The notes under the pieces: model-generated
Seen by the model: only the letters and a program-made list of their open reading frames with translations
Database searches by the model: none
Told to the model about the DNA's origin: nothing
Part shown: one piece after another, positions 35,472 through 43,532 of the stretch
Layout: every line of letters starts with the position of its first letter
Numbering within the stretch: the stretch's first letter is position 1
Source of the DNA: Spiroplasma sabaudiense Ar-1343
GTDB lineage: Bacteria > Bacillota_I > Bacilli_A > Mycoplasmatales > Mycoplasmataceae
Assembly (NCBI RefSeq): GCF_000565215.1
Contig: NZ_CP006934.1
Coordinates: 124,001-188,000 of the forward strand
Reading direction: 5' to 3'
DNA length: 64,000 nt
Program-made: the position numbers and the translations under genes

Positions 35472-37274
35472 ATGGACAAATCAAAAATTAGAAATTTTAG
35501 TATAATTGCCCATATTGATCACGGAAAATCAACTTTAGCTGATCGAATCTTAGAAATGACTCACACCGTTGAAAAGCGCGATATGCAAGCCCAGCTATTA
35601 GATTCGATGGACATTGAGCGTGAACGCGGAATTACAATAAAATTGAACTCTGTCCAACTAAAATATAAATCAAAAAGTGGTGAAGAATATATCTTTCATT
35701 TAATTGACACCCCAGGTCATGTTGATTTTACATATGAAGTTTCTCGAAGTTTGGCTGCGTGTGAGGGTGCTATTTTAGTCGTCGATGCCAGTCAGGGAGT
35801 TGAGGCCCAAACTCTAGCAAATGTTTATTTGGCTCTTGATAATGATTTGGAAATAATCCCAGTAATAAATAAAGTTGATTTACCAGCAGCAGATGTTGAG
35901 CGAGTGAAATCTGAAATTGAAAATCTAATTGGTTTAGACACAACAGAAGCACCACTGATTTCTGCAAAAACAGGTTTAAATGTTGAAGATGTTCTAGAGG
36001 CAATTGTAAATAAAATTCCTCCCCCAAAAGGAGCAGACGATTCCCAACCGCTAAGAGCTCTAGTTTTTGATTCTTACTATGACAAGTATCGAGGAGTTAT
36101 GGTTTCAGTAAGGATAAAAGAAGGAACTGTTAAAGTCGGTCAAAAAATTAAAATGATGGCATCGCAGGCGGTTTATGAAGTTACAGAGTTGGGAATTAAA
36201 AACCCCTTAGAAGTAAAACGAGATTCACTTGAAGCAGGGGAAGTTGGGTGAATTGCTGCTAGCATCAAAAATATTAAAGATATTCATGTTGGTGATACAA
36301 TTACAACAGAAAAAAATGGAGCTACAGAATCATTACCAGGTTACAAAAAAATGAACCCCACTGTTTATTGTGGAATTTATACAGTAGATAATGCCAGATA
36401 TAAGGATTTAAAAGATGCTTTAGAGAAAGTTAATTTAAGTGATGCAGCATTAGTTTATGAACCAGAGTCTTCACAATCGCTTGGATTTGGTTTTCGCTGT
36501 GGATTTTTGGGGTTATTGCATATGGATGTGATTCAAGAGCGTTTGGAGCGCGAATACGATCTCACATTAATCGCCACTGCCCCATCAGTTATTTACAAAG
36601 TATTTTTAACAAATAAAGAAATGATTGAAATTGATAACCCGGCAAATTTACCCGATGTTCAAAAGATTGACCACATTGAAGAACCGTTTGTGAATGTGAA
36701 AATCATGACTCCAGAAAAATTTTTAGGGGACTTAATGGAATTATGTCAGAACAAGCGAGGCATTTACAAAAACTTAGAATATATTGATGATACTCGTCGA
36801 ACCCTAACATATGATATGCCTTTAAATGAAATTATCTTTGATTTTTTTAATAAATTGAAATCAATTTCTAAAGGATATGCATCTTTTGATTATGACCTTA
36901 TTGGTTATCAAACTAGCAAACTTGTTAAGATGGATATTTTACTTAATGGAGAAGTTGTAGACGCCCTAAGTTTAATTGTTCATAAAGACTTCGCTTATGC
37001 AAGAGGAAAAGTCTTGACAGAAAAACTAAAAGAAATTATCCCGCGACAAAATTTTGAGGTTCCAATTCAGGCCGCTATTGGTAGCAAAGTGATTTCTCGT
37101 GAAACAATAAAAGCAATGCGAAAAAATGTTTTAGCCAAATGTTATGGTGGGGACATTTCAAGAAAGAAAAAACTTTTAGAGAAACAAAAAGAGGGTAAGA
37201 AACGAATGAAATCAATTGGTTCTGTTGAAGTACCACAAGAAGCATTTATTGCAGTATTAAAACTAGATGATTAA
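35472..37274 (+). CDS. lepA: Elongation factor 4 (LepA)
   Basis: LepA is a ribosomal GTPase that acts on stalled or back-translocating ribosomes. G1 is [10 protein letters not shown]2 lies in ERERGITI, G3 is DTPGHVDF and G4 NKVDLP. Domains II-V and the LepA-specific C-terminal domain (with [18 protein letters not shown] and [16 protein letters not shown]) are complete. The 600-residue length is typical. TGA at 36249 is Trp. It follows the DUF402 gene closely and ends with a terminator at 37284. Confidence 0.97.
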
Positions 37275-37283
37275 TAACGCTTT

Positions 37284-37318
37284 AAAAATAATAATTCGAA
37301 CAGGATTATTATTTTTTA
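37284..37318 (+). terminator. Terminator after lepA
   Basis: A 12-base AT stem (AAAAATAATAAT with its complement) and a nine-base loop are followed by T residues. Confidence 0.65.
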
Positions 37319-37425
37319 TTTATTAAGTTCACAGCTTTGATAACTTGCAATTTTAAACCCGCTATTTAATGGTAATATAGTAAATATTTGATTATAATTA
37401 AAAATATAACAAAATGGAGGACGAT

Positions 37426-38310
37426 ATGAAAAAACTAATTTATTTAAATTTAATAAGTTTATTTTTAGCTGTTTTTTCAATGGCTTTTATTGCGCCGTTT
37501 ATGTATTTTAGCAAGACAATCGATGGGAAAATTTTAATTTTTACAAAAAATGTATACACTCTGTCAGAAATCGGTTTAGGACTAACTTTTTTTGCATTTG
37601 GAATTGGTGCTCTATTTGCCAAAAACCGAATTCTCAAAGTAATTGCGTTAAGCCTATCAATATTTACTTGTTTGGTGTTCGTTTTTATAGCTGGTTATGG
37701 AATGTCGGGTTTGTTTGCAATTGAAAAAATTCATGTTTTTAAAATAATAATACCAGTCTTTTTTATCTCGCTATTTTTTATTGGACTGTTGTTTTCTCAA
37801 ACCCCAAATCACTTGCAAAATCTGGTTTTACAAAATAAAAGTGAAGAAGCCACTGATCAAATAACTGACGTCTTGGTCAAAGACGATTTGAAGATTAAAA
37901 TTTCAAAGCTAAAAACCAATTTATCTAAACCATCTTTTGAAATTTTGCAAGAAATAGATTCGACAGGGAGTTTTTCGGGAATAGATATTCAAAAAATTAT
38001 TGGAATAGATGAAAACATCGGTGAATCAAATGATGAAAGTTCAAAAGGGCCTGAAGATTTAAAAATCATTAATCCAAATTCTGAAAATTTTGTTAAAAAA
38101 AATTCACAATCTCCTGAAAAAATTAGTGATTCTGATGGTAAAGACAGCAATAAAAATAAAAAAATTATTCAAGAACATAATTATGATTTTATTGATTTAA
38201 CAGAATTATCTTTTGAAAAAAATAAGGAAAAAGACGATTTTGAAATTATCACTCCAAGGAGACTAGACGGTAAGAATGAAACAGAATTAAAAAAGGACTT
38301 AAATGAGTAA
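37426..38310 (+). CDS. Membrane protein with acidic C-terminal tail
   Basis: A 294-residue protein: four predicted helices in the first 130 residues (about 5-28, 42-60, 65-90, 102-128), then a 165-residue hydrophilic tail rich in Ser, Asn, Asp, Glu and Lys, probably disordered. ATG 37426 follows TGGAGG; an earlier in-frame ATG at 37414 lacks a site. No family recognised. Its last eight bases overlap the next gene, so the two membrane proteins are translationally coupled. First gene of a five-gene cluster to 41627. Confidence 0.7.
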   Translation: MKKLIYLNLISLFLAVFSMAFIAPFMYFSKTIDGKILIFTKNVYTLSEIGLGLTFFAFGIGALFAKNRILKVIALSLSIFTCLVFVFIAGYGMSGLFAIEKIHVFKIIIPVFFISLFFIGLLFSQTPNHLQNLVLQNKSEEATDQITDVLVKDDLKIKISKLKTNLSKPSFEILQEIDSTGSFSGIDIQKIIGIDENIGESNDESSKGPEDLKIINPNSENFVKKNSQSPEKISDSDGKDSNKNKKIIQEHNYDFIDLTELSFEKNKEKDDFEIITPRRLDGKNETELKKDLNE

Positions 38311-39046
38311 AAAGATTAAAGTTTTAAATAATGAATTCAGTAAAGAAACCAATCCGTTACATCCAGGAGCTGTCTCTTTTAGTTTTTTTCTAAGAATTAC
38401 AGCTTTTTTCATTTGCATGACTTATTTTGTTGTCTTGTTAATTGTATTAATTAGCGATGTTTTGACGAAAGATATTATAATTTTTTTATATTATTACTTT
38501 TTAGAATTAATTGGTTTAGCAACCGATAACATTTCCTATAATGTTTATTTAATATGTTGACAAGTTATATTTCCAATATTATTCGCCTTATCTCTGGGAT
38601 TACTATATTTATTGCCAATTATCATTTCCAAATCTCGTGGCTTTAGAATTTTTATTGGAATTTCATCAATGATTTTAGCAATTTCACTCCTAACCATAAC
38701 TATATTATTTGTTGAATTTAAAGATCTTTGAAATGATATTGAATTTGAAAATTCTAGCACGGCGATTTTAAGAGATTCAATTGTTGGGAATCTTAAATAC
38801 AATTCATTTTTAATTATTTTTCTATTAGCTGCAAACTCAAGCATTATCGCGATAAGCATTTTTTTATTTATTGAGGCAAGCCTGGCTAAAAAAGGCTTAG
38901 TAGATTTAAAAGTTTTAACTTTTAACAAATTTAAGAACAGACATCTAATTATAAAGTTTCTCGAAGGTGATGAAACGTTTGTGGAAAACAAAAATCCCAA
39001 AAAAACAAAGCCCCGAAGCGAGGATTCTGAAAATGACTTGAATTAA
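38303..39046 (+). CDS. Membrane protein of unknown function
   Basis: A 247-residue protein with about four predicted helices (about 28-55, 88-108, 116-138 and 175-198) and charged ends; the C-terminus is Lys/Glu-rich. TGA codons at 38558 and 38729 are Trp. It overlaps the gene before by 8 bases and the metallopeptidase gene after by 14 bases, implying coupled synthesis. No recognised family. Confidence 0.7.
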
Positions 39047-39719
39047 AAAGAAATTACAGTATCAAGGCAATTTAGTTGAGTATAATTTAAGAATTGCAGA
39101 TCAAAAAAATATAATCTTAAAAGTTAAAGAGGGCAATATTTTTGTATCTGCACCCCATAGAGCAGCTGATTGGGAAATCAATAATTTGATTTACAAAAAT
39201 TTAAAAAAAATTCAAGCAGTACAATCAACTTTTACAACTATACAAAAAATATCATTTAAAAACGATGATAGTTTTGTAAAGATTTTTGATAAAAAAATTA
39301 AACTTCACATTACTGAAGAAAACATTCATACGACGGCAAAACCCGAAGGAATCTTTATGAAAAATTACCAAAATCATGAAAATCAAACACAAAAGTTGTA
39401 TGCTTTTTTGGGAAAGTATTATTATAACTGATTTGAAAAACGATTAAGCCATTGAGCAGAAATTATGAATTTGACTTATAAAAATCTCTCAATGCAAAAT
39501 ATGAAAACCCGTTGAGGGGTTTGTTACCCAGAAAGAGAAAAAATAGTTTTAAATACGAAACTAATTCATTTTTTACCAGATGTAATAGATTATGTCATTG
39601 TACACGAATTAAGTCATTTGGTTCACAAAAACCACTCTAAAGATTTTTGGTGAAATGTCGAAAAATTTTTACCAAACTATAAAGATAAGGCACTAGTATT
39701 AAAACAATCAGGAATTTAA
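39033..39719 (+). CDS. YgjP/DUF45-type zinc metallopeptidase
   Basis: A 228-residue member of the YgjP-like (WLM-related, M48-like) family. The zinc motif is VIVHELSHLVHKNHSKDFW: the two His of HELSH, with a third ligand in the downstream H. The preceding MKTRWGVCYPEREKIVLN segment is the family's conserved strand-turn. Members are called metal-dependent hydrolases and the natural substrate is not settled. It starts inside the preceding membrane-protein gene. TGA codons are Trp. Confidence 0.88.
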
Positions 39720-39778
39720 AAGATAAATTTGTTTAAATTTTTTTTAAAGTTTATAATATTAGGAAATGAGGTGTTAAA

Positions 39779-40774
39779 ATGGGATGGAAAAATAACTATA
39801 AAAAAGCCTTTAAAAATAAGTTAAAAAATAGCAAATCTGTCAATATTAGTTATTTTGAGCCGCTCCCATACTTCATATTGTGAGAGCGCGAGCACAAACA
39901 AGTTAACGAGTGAAACGAAGAGACTTTAATGCGAGAAATTAAACTCTATCAAACCAAAATCTTAAGTTTTAAAACAATTCATCAAATTCCAGAGGAATTT
40001 AATGAACAAGTTGAAGTTAAATTTATGGAAGATGAAATCGTGGAGAAATTCACAGGCCTGCCAGCTATTTCTAATTTCCAAGCAACTTACAATTATTTTT
40101 TAAAAAAAATGGGCAAATATAAGGCTTTAGTAATGTTGTTTAGTATTACAAAGTTTACTTATTACACCACTTCTAAATTTTGACAAATTTATATGAATAG
40201 TTTTTCAAGTTATGATGTAGAAAAAACAAATTTTAAGAGAATATTTTTAGTAATGCGTCGGACAAGTTTTGAGTCTATTGAAAATCTTTTAAAAAAGTTA
40301 ATTATTTTAGTTGGTAAAAATGAAATAGATCAATACCGCCACCATATGTTAATTGAGGAAATTATTGAAGGGGGAGAAGACCTAACCTTTCACTGAGCAA
40401 GAATGCTTGAGCAAATAATTGAATCTAGTTTTGAAAGTATTAGTTTTGAAAGTAGATATGGAAAACCCTACGAAGGCTATTCCCAGGATGAAACCCTTGA
40501 TAGCCCCTTTGGAGACCCAGATCAAGACAACTTTGATAAATTCTTTGAACAAACTCACACCTTGGTTATCAATGATGAAGTCAATGAAGCATTTAATTTT
40601 TTTGGTTTAACTAAAATGACTGAACCCAGTGATTTTAAAAAAACTTATCGCCATTTTGCAAAAAAATTTCACCCGGATGTCAATTCAAATGAATCATCGG
40701 CTTCAGAAATGAAGAAAATCAACATTTATAAACAAATTATTGAAGATTACTTTGATAGATATAATATAACATAA
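39779..40774 (+). CDS. Protein with C-terminal J domain
   Basis: A 331-residue protein with its J domain at the C-terminus (about 268-331): EAFNFFGLTKMTEPSDFKK then YRHFAKKFHPDVN, with the essential HPD that stimulates DnaK ATPase. The first 260 residues are unlike DnaJ: no Gly/Phe region and no zinc repeats; they are mixed helical with an acidic loop around residues 220-262. It is therefore a specialised co-chaperone rather than DnaJ. ATG 39779 follows TGAGGTG. TGA codons at 39881, 39911, 40181 and 40394 are Trp. Confidence 0.85.
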
Positions 40775-40790
40775 TTGAAAGGAAGCAATC

Positions 40791-41627
40791 ATGGATAAAC
40801 GAACTTGAAAAGACTATGAAAAAATAGTTGAGAAAATAATGGATGAGGAGATGTTGTTACTAAAACTTTCTCCTGAGTTTTATGAATTTCCAATAACAAA
40901 AAGTATTATCAAATTTTGGCAAAAAACTCCAGATGTCTTTAAGTTCCAAAAATTTCTAGAGAAGAAAATGACCGAACTAAGTCAAGAAGCAGACTCAGAA
41001 GTTGAAGATTTAGACGATTTCAGTGAAATTATTTTTATACGAATAATGGCTCTAACTACAACTATGACCGTGGTAATCAAAAATTTTAATCAAAAAACAG
41101 ATCTTTTTTGAAAGAAAAGATTTAAGGAAATTAACAATGCAGATCATAATTTTTTAATTCATTTAGTGCCAAGAATTGTTGGAAACCATTATCTACAAAA
41201 TTTTGAATTTGAAATAAGAAATTTAATAATTCCTGAGAGTTTAAGCAGTTTTGGGAATAGAGTTTTAAATCGAATTACCAAAATTTCTCAAGAAGACAAT
41301 ATTGAAAACTTTTTTGAACAACTTTATGAATTGCAAGAGTCATTTGAAGACATGTTAGAAAGCGTCAGCCAAACAGAAGTTGATATTTCAGATCAAGAAT
41401 TAAATGAAGCAGGTTTATTTTTTAACTGAAGTATGTATGTAGAGGCTAGTTTATATTTTCTGCTGCTTATCCACGAAAATCTTCTAGCAATTGAAGAAGA
41501 AAATACAAAACTTTTAATTCAAGAAGAAAAGTATCATATGATTAATAGAGAAGAAAAGATTAGTGAATTAAAGTTTATCAACAACGAAATGAATTATAAT
41601 GAAGATTATAGTAAATTAAAAAATTAG
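40791..41627 (+). CDS. Hypothetical acidic helical protein
   Basis: A 278-residue acidic protein, predicted mostly helical and soluble, with Glu-rich stretches (around residues 60-85, 165-205 and 235-270). No recognised motif. ATG 40791 follows AAAGGAAG and lies 16 bases after the J-domain gene, so it may be a partner of that co-chaperone. TGA codons at 40806, 41109 and 41427 are Trp. Last gene of the cluster before typA. Confidence 0.7.
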
Positions 41628-41705: not shown

Positions 41706-43532
41706 ATGTCAAATCAAAAAATTATTAATATTGCCGTGATTGCCCACGTTGATGCAGGAAAATCTACACTTGTAGACGCTTTTTTGTCACAATCGGGAGT
41801 ATTTCGCGCAAACGAAGAAGTTAAAGAACAAGTAATGGATAGTAATGATCAAGAAAGAGAACGTGGAATCACAATTTATTCAAAAAATTGCGCCATCGAA
41901 TATAAAGGAATCAAAATTAATATCGTAGATACTCCGGGCCATGCTGATTTTTCATCAGAGGTTGAGAGAATTATGAAAACTGTTGATACAGTAATCCTTT
42001 TGGTTGATTCATCAGAGGGACCAATGCCTCAAACTCGTTTTGTATTATCAAAAGCTTTAGATTTAGGATTAAAACCAATTTTGTTAATCAATAAAATTGA
42101 TAAAAAAGATCAAAGAGCCCTTGAAGTTGTCGACGAAGTATTAGAACTGTTTATGGAACTGAATGCAAACGATGAACAACTAGAGTTTAAAACTTTATTT
42201 GGAATTGCTAAACGTGGAATTGCACAAAAAACAATTGACGAAGAGGGCAAAGACTTATCACCGCTATTTGATACAATTATCGATCAAGTTGGAACCTACC
42301 CAGAAGATTTAATAAATAACACAACAAGAATGCAAGTATCATCTCTTGCATATGATTCTTTTATTGGTCGTTTGGGAATTGGAAGAATTTTTGAGGGTAC
42401 TTTAAAAGAGGGTCAAACGATTTCAAACTCTCGAAATGACGGAACTGTGACAAAAGGTAAAATTGGTGGAATTTTTGTGTATCAAGGATTAAATCGTGTT
42501 GCTGTTAAAGAAGCTGTTGCTGGAGACATTGTTGTAATTTCAGGTTTAAGTGATGTTTCAATTGGAGACACAATTTGTGATCAAAACGATGTAAGACCAA
42601 TGCCAACAATTACAATTGAAGAACCAACAATGAGTATGAACATTTTGGTAAATACCTCACCATTTGCTGGCCGTGTTGGAAAGTTTGTTACAACAAGAAA
42701 TATTAAAGAACGTTTAGATAAAGAGCTTGAAGTAAACGTTGGATTGAAAGTTGAAAAACTATCAGATTCATCAGCTGATGGTTTTAAAGTTCTTGGTCGT
42801 GGAGAGTTGCACTTATCGGTTTTAATTGAATCAATGCGTCGTGAAGGGTTTGAACTTGGAGTTTCAAAACCAGAAGTTGTTATGCACAAAAATGATGCAG
42901 GAGAACTTTTAGAACCAATGGAAAAAGTAATTATTAGTGTGCCAACAGAATACTCTGGAACAGTAATTAATAAATTAAATCTAAGAAAAGGTCTAATGAT
43001 GGACATGGACTCAGATGGAATTCGTGATAAAGTTATTTACAATGTCCCAATGCGTGGATTAATTGGATTCAGAAGTGAATTCACCAACGATACCCACGGT
43101 GAGGGAATAATGGTTAGAAGCGCAAATGGCTTTGAAGCTTATAAAGGCAAAATTGACGGCCGCGCAAATGGGGTTTTAGTTTCAATGGCCAATGGAGTAA
43201 CACTACCTTATGCACTAGCAAACTTAGAAGATCGTGGGAAATTATTTGTTGGTCCGCAGACTGAAGTATATGAAGGAATGATCGTAGGACTACATTCTCG
43301 AAATAATGATTTGGATGTTAACCCAACAACAGGAAAAAAATTAACAAACACTCGTTCTTCAGGAACTGATGAGTCAAGTCGTCTAACACCGTTTACAAAA
43401 TTTTCTTTAGAAGAGTCACTTGAGTTTATTGAGTGAGATGAGTTGGTTGAGGTAACACCAAACGACATTAGATTGCGTAAAAAATGATTAACAATCAATG
43501 ATCGTAAACTACATCGAAATGATAAATTTTAA
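41706..43532 (+). CDS. typA: GTPase TypA/BipA
   Basis: TypA is a ribosome-associated GTPase involved in 50S assembly and stress. G1 is AHVDAGKSTL, G2 lies in ERERGITI, G3 is DTPGHADF and G4 NKIDK. Domains II, III and V and the TypA C-terminal domain (with LEDRGKLFVGPQTEVYEGMI) are complete. The 608-residue length is typical. ATG 41706 follows TTAGGAGAAG; an earlier in-frame start is rejected for lack of family match. TGA codons at 43434 and 43485 are Trp. Confidence 0.96.

Follow-up and report, generated by a model that had tools for sequence, protein, structure and literature searches.

Between the genes for LepA and a presumed TypA/BipA-type GTPase of Spiroplasma sabaudiense Ar-1343, a set of five closely packed genes raises the question of whether it works as a single unit and, if so, on what. 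The set lies in a stretch of 64,000 nucleotides (positions 124,001 to 188,000 of contig NZ_CP006934.1), which is called the window here and to which the coordinates refer unless another locus is named. A reading of these letters alone (hereafter the sequence-only reading) had proposed a jointly functioning module for membrane-protein quality control or secretion assistance. The genome (1.076 Mb, one contig) decodes TGA as Trp, and the five reading frames, broken under table 11, are all open under table 4 at the coordinates given here:

35472..37274, forward strand: LepA/EF4 gene, upstream neighbour (LepA_C, 6.9e-51)
37284..37316, forward strand: likely LepA terminator hairpin, A/T-rich, with a 12-bp perfect stem, a loop of 9 and a T-rich 3' side
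37393..37398, forward strand: TATAAT, predicted -10 box of unit 1, from its sequence and its conservation upstream of MEM1
37426..38310, forward strand: MEM1, four predicted transmembrane (TM) helices followed by an acidic tail (net charge -11)
38303..39046, forward strand: MEM2, polytopic membrane protein with a basic C-terminal tail, poorly conserved
39033..39719, forward strand: YgjP-like metallopeptidase (ATG at 39033; HELSH motif; PF01863, 3e-51)
39752..39757, forward strand: TATAAT, predicted -10 box of unit 2, from its sequence and its conservation upstream of JDOM
39779..40774, forward strand: JDOM, basic amphipathic N-terminus, helical N-terminal domain, C-terminal J domain
40791..41627, forward strand: PART, acidic, predicted all-helical, C-terminal end -LKN
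41706..43532, forward strand: downstream neighbour, whose product we take to be a TypA/BipA-type GTPase (reading frame open from 41667, ATG at 41706)

The overlaps among the first three genes and the close spacing of the last two, from which joint function had been concluded, hold: MEM1 and MEM2 share 8 bp, MEM2 and YgjP 14 bp, and PART begins 16 bp past JDOM, which itself starts 59 bp past YgjP. Since the set recurs in related genomes, it is more than a chance arrangement. The explanation that we tentatively favour is that of two adjacent, separately promoted modules, which may jointly tend membrane-proximal proteins.

For comparison, 60 genomes of the family from 12 genera were searched (the genus labels g1 to g12 and genome labels such as G000 are search labels). 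Single-sequence searches found YgjP in all 60 genomes, PART in 32, MEM1 in 15, and MEM2 in 3. The J domain of JDOM has matches in 60/60, and full-length JDOM is found in 28 genomes from six of the 12 genera (g1, 3; g4, 1; g5, 1; g6, 1; g9, 20; g10, 2). A profile of the JDOM N-terminal region matches 29 of the 320 genomes of the order, the extra copy being that of G018 (g8), and a PART profile matches 42 of the 320; the MEM1 profile matches 26 of the 60 family genomes, all 26 of which possess JDOM, and according to an iterated profile MEM2 adjoins MEM1 in 26/26; because of shared ancestry, these genome counts are not independent. In a search of named genomes, the JDOM sequence gave no match and the cluster-family profile A1 a single locus.

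Concerning gene order, which was mapped in 60 fetched stretches including all 28 with JDOM, the gene directly preceding JDOM is YgjP in 27 of the 28; in the exception, G004, the two are 678 bp apart, with an ORF of 120 aa in the gap. MEM1, MEM2, and YgjP are contiguous in all 26 genomes with MEM1. PART follows JDOM, or a sixth gene (X) situated between the two, in 25 of the 28, the exceptions being G006 (where the contig ends), G005 (another gene), and G050 (a weak candidate). All five genes co-occur in g1, g4, and g9, and the linkage extends over several genera, which is the point on which the proposal of joint function was open to refutation. Other genera possess parts of the set. Members of g10 have YgjP-JDOM(-PART) without MEM1 and MEM2, and in g8 a MEM1-related protein lies beside YgjP, with JDOM not adjacent. 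PART directly follows LepA in g7 (7 genomes), g11 (4), and g12 (4), where JDOM, MEM1, and MEM2 are absent and YgjP is located elsewhere. Members of g2 carry LepA, YgjP, and PART in succession; in G001 a gene on the reverse strand separates the last two.

These parts standing apart in g2, g7, g8, g10, g11, and g12 speak against a single five-gene quality-control operon with all five proteins acting together, an explanation which would fit the overlaps, the short gaps, and the co-occurrence in three genera and which we nevertheless consider unlikely. The same map would also agree with the genes being neighbours by position only: PART would be LepA-linked and perhaps translation-related, YgjP a housekeeping gene, and JDOM with the two membrane genes an insertion in a Spiroplasma ancestor. 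This is somewhat doubtful, and similar reserve applies to its corollary that the inserted genes stayed because these genomes rearrange slowly. Besides the position of PART directly after LepA in three genera and the presence of YgjP in every genome, the LepA tree fits an insertion: it has 43 rows, with a single row from g8 and none from g3, and under midpoint rooting every one of the 25 JDOM rows falls on one side, grouped with the g8 row (100/100) and apart from g2, g7, g11, and g12. Tree and gene order together suggest that PART is the older resident, and that the JDOM-carrying side, which we take to be the Spiroplasma lineage, is distinguished by JDOM and the two membrane genes. Furthermore, the order of LepA, TypA, and enolase is often kept as well, so that conserved order is in part slow rearrangement. 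Against mere neighbourhood, however, stand the linkage of YgjP and JDOM, which persists where the upstream neighbour has changed (in G050, G031, and G033 it is not LepA, and the set is still kept together), and the MEM1-family protein that adjoins YgjP in g8 also.

The division into two modules is suggested by the distribution of promoter motifs. For the 28 genomes with JDOM, exact TATAAT was counted in the 60 bp upstream of the individual genes, with expectations from Markov shuffles. The motif precedes MEM1 in 22/26 genomes (6.8 expected) and JDOM in 26/28 (5.8 expected), whereas it is rare upstream of MEM2 (2/26), YgjP (2/28), and PART (2/25), as well as of X (2/17); for the flanking genes the numbers are 3/23 (TypA) and 12/25 (LepA). 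If only positions -42 to -20 are considered, it is found at JDOM in 22/28 and at MEM1 in 18/26 genomes, compared with 7 of 186 other closely spaced genes and 19 of 97 genes with longer upstream gaps. The JDOM copies of g10 (2 genomes) have no TATAAT upstream. From the conserved boxes before MEM1 and JDOM and their rarity before the other three genes, we infer two transcripts, MEM1-MEM2-YgjP (unit 1) and JDOM-(X)-PART (unit 2). No terminator hairpin was found between the five genes, the nearest being situated before MEM1 and after TypA, so that read-through is possible, a point in favour of the single operon. The hairpin after LepA (RNA fold, -10.7 kcal/mol) was missed by a standard terminator scan because the scan needs G-C pairs. 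As to a common promoter, the five genes thus have predicted -10 boxes at genes one and four and no intergenic terminator. The joint unit of the sequence-only reading therefore survives in that the genes are kept together, but a single five-gene unit is not supported, as the boxes predict two transcripts and parts occur apart; separate transcripts, which that reading had named as speaking against itself, are in part what the predicted boxes indicate.

Within unit 1, the YgjP-like protein is by its sequence a clear member of the PF01863 metallopeptidases (174.8 bits, cut-off 26). Equally to other members of this family it matches over the full length and possesses the HExxH zinc motif (present in 42/42 fetched copies), whereas here it is co-encoded with two membrane proteins; to proabylysin (4jiu) there is a weak link (E 0.0011). 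MEM1 has four TM segments in hydropathy and carries in its tail the conserved stretch DLKxKIxxLKxxLSKxxxExxxEIExTGxxxG. MEM1, MEM2, and PART have no Pfam match up to E=1 and no NCBIfam match, such that the three proteins called hypothetical before remain without a known family. MEM1 and MEM2 were considered as paralogues, which is unsupported (hhalign, 2.3%).

In g8, comparison of coordinates places a four-TM protein directly beside YgjP in 14/14 genomes (split in G017). The profiles cross-match for this protein; it aligns with MEM1 at 96.2% and better, at 99.3%, with another chromosomal gene of g1 and g9. Being closest to a third paralogue, it is assigned to MEM1's broader family only, rather than to MEM1 or MEM2. 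A family of four-TM proteins with a tail accordingly exists, some member of which accompanies YgjP. This hints that a membrane protein is YgjP's partner, the g8 neighbour being the strongest pointer. A distant MEM1-family protein is also encoded by the genome to which the window belongs (L159:4310-5626, minus strand; G000:C1, about 713.3-714.6 kb), where its gene adjoins those of an alpha/beta hydrolase and an aldehyde dehydrogenase.

In unit 2, the J domain of JDOM occupies residues 272-323 of 331 (PF00226, 29.9 bits, cut-off 27.8), and the HPD motif is intact here and present in 29/29 copies. The C-terminal position described for it earlier is thereby confirmed, as is the novelty of the region preceding it: no Pfam family is supported there across 17 rows, no NCBIfam family covers it, and the only Pfam hit of JDOM besides PF00226, YTH (E 0.16), lies below its cut-off. 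Having a J domain with HPD and neither DnaJ zinc-finger nor C-terminal substrate domains, JDOM is a class C J-protein. Its N-terminus carries MGWKxxFKK, the first 20 residues are basic (mean charge +4.9), and residues 2-13 are amphipathic (shuffle p<0.05) in 25 of 29 copies; those that deviate are both copies of g10 and the ones of G043 (p 0.07) and G018. Hydropathy gave no TM segment in the JDOM of the window. In the g8 relative of G018, a clear homologue (hhalign, 99.6%), a hydrophobic stretch replaces the amphipathic N-terminus. This relative stands alone in g8 (L157:6693-7649). The genome encodes one full-length DnaK, away from the cluster; four other matches to the Hsp70 profile cover only about 110-160 profile positions each. 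Because the basic amphipathic N-terminus is conserved and G018 has a hydrophobic stretch in its place, we read JDOM as a membrane-bound recruiter of DnaK. AlphaFold, run on JDOM together with one homologue, gave a model too poor for use (pLDDT 55.2). When this model was searched with Foldseek, nothing matched at E<=0.001 and J-domain structures appeared only in the weak rows; in PDB searches with the cluster-family profiles A1 and A2, no match had an E value below 0.5. A connection of JDOM with helical cell shape was dropped, because g8, which we take to be the helical citri group, is without the cluster's JDOM.

Among known J-proteins, JDOM resembles TopJ, the terminal-organelle J-protein of mycoplasmas, in being a Mollicute J-protein with a long non-J region. 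Despite this similarity, it reaches only 21.7 bits against the NCBIfam equivalog of TopJ (cut-off 300), and the J domain alone aligns, at the N-terminus of the TopJ model, whereas that of JDOM is C-terminal. DjlA is described, in the passages covered, as having a helical region followed by a C-terminal J domain and a membrane-linked topology (PMC11451591), and JDOM likewise carries its J domain at the C-terminus after a helical region. There are, however, differences: the TerB-like middle domain is absent in JDOM (window protein and 17 N-terminal rows), the window protein lacks a predicted N-terminal TM helix, and its score against the DjlA equivalog of NCBIfam is 16.2 bits (cut-off 162). JDOM would thus work like DjlA without being a DjlA member. 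For DjlB and DjlC, the passages covered describe membrane-anchored J-proteins with suspected membrane clients (PMC8215388); these work with an Hsp70 of their own, HscC, whereas here the single full-length DnaK is encoded elsewhere in the genome.

PART (pI 4.71, net charge -21) is predicted to be helical. It ends in Asn in 37 of 48 copies and in Lys-Asn in 30, compared with 52 and 9, respectively, of 742 other ORFs; the seven g7 copies have E, D, or F as the last residue, and the endings KS and KK occur in two copies each. This C-terminal Asn, usually Lys-Asn, is kept down to about 20% identity (41610-41627 in the window). Among 30 PART rows, no Pfam match recurs in a second row, and the AlphaFold model of PART alone (pLDDT 47.6) was too poor for use. 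Searches against PHROGs and PADLOC yielded nothing informative. The g7 rows taken by themselves do not match those of g9 (hhalign, 2.7%); they are counted as PART since they match the full profile with per-genome E values of 1e-13 to 1e-18 and lie directly after LepA. At the position of PART, G050 has a 270-aa gene that qualifies only weakly (8.1%, E 0.0043), and the 335-aa gene of G005 is not recognisably PART (1.5%). Gene X is found in 17 of the 28 JDOM genomes, being the final gene on the contig in G006, and is absent in the window's genus. The JDOM N-terminal domain, PART, and X looked plausible by eye as paralogues, for which hhalign gave probabilities of only 0.1-0.2%, and the idea was rejected. 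Seven PART-type matches exist in G057 (g12; L114, L113, L126), five of them on L114 and most away from LepA.

In almost every carrier mapped, PART is located in the interval from LepA to TypA or follows LepA directly. Given this position, unit 2 might serve ribosomes or nascent chains, and JDOM and PART would then cooperate with LepA and TypA during co-translational membrane insertion. The sequences hold no signal for ribosome binding, however, and with no Pfam match shared among the PART rows this appears very improbable.

If the two-module explanation is followed further, YgjP would be a soluble zinc metallopeptidase co-produced with two polytopic membrane proteins, and the cytosolic tail of MEM1 would, via its conserved stretch, probably dock YgjP or its substrates at the membrane. 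JDOM would rest on the membrane via its basic amphipathic N-terminus, use its N-terminal domain to bind a client or partner, and by its C-terminal J domain recruit the single DnaK of the cell, with PART (and X in relatives) as likely helical partners or client adaptors. Both units might then keep proteins near the membrane in an unfolded state, from which they could be refolded or be cleaved by YgjP. Against this explanation stands that PART occurs without JDOM in g2, g7, g11, and g12 and YgjP universally, so that neither depends on the others, and that the two g10 genomes have JDOM without MEM1, TATAAT, or an amphipathic N-terminus. The membrane-protein quality-control role proposed before is a fair guess, whereas nothing at the locus was found to speak for secretion assistance. 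A more specific version, in which JDOM, X, and PART form a new membrane-tethered, Hsp70-recruiting complex of the Spiroplasma lineage that feeds membrane-proximal substrates to a YgjP docked by MEM1 and MEM2, with the Lys-Asn of PART as a C-terminal recognition tag, is distinctly unlikely.

Mollicutes possess few chaperones and proteases, so that a conserved J-protein specific to this lineage and its putative partner beside a metallopeptidase and membrane proteins constitute a testable lead, which concerns membrane-protein upkeep in wall-less cells. The cluster is real and conserved, and two modules are more likely than one operon; the mechanism is deduced from domains and anatomy. No description of the cluster was found in the literature covered on YgjP, minigluzincin, Spiroplasma DnaJ and lepA, DjlA, the JCVI-syn3 metallopeptidase, and Mesoplasma essential genes, which included passages of PMC11130926, PMC9437053, PMC11451591, PMC8215388, PMC4559962, and PMC5893858. 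The papers covered give no function of YgjP, for which the cluster supplies candidate partners.

Some variation exists around the cluster. In G043 (g9), LepA-MEM1-MEM2-YgjP occurs a second time, in broken form and lacking JDOM (L158:3775-7797), the duplication ending before unit 2. In ten g9 genomes, PART and TypA are separated by an additional small gene (L099:10711-11160; no Pfam match in the L099 copy), and in L099 a GNAT gene is situated between LepA and MEM1. Where YgjP lies away from LepA, a 364-aa gene is often found near it (L118:6046-7140 and others; ORFs of this length in L095, L096, L117, L119, L120, L124, and L125), which is YchF in the one copy tested, the remainder being matched by length only.
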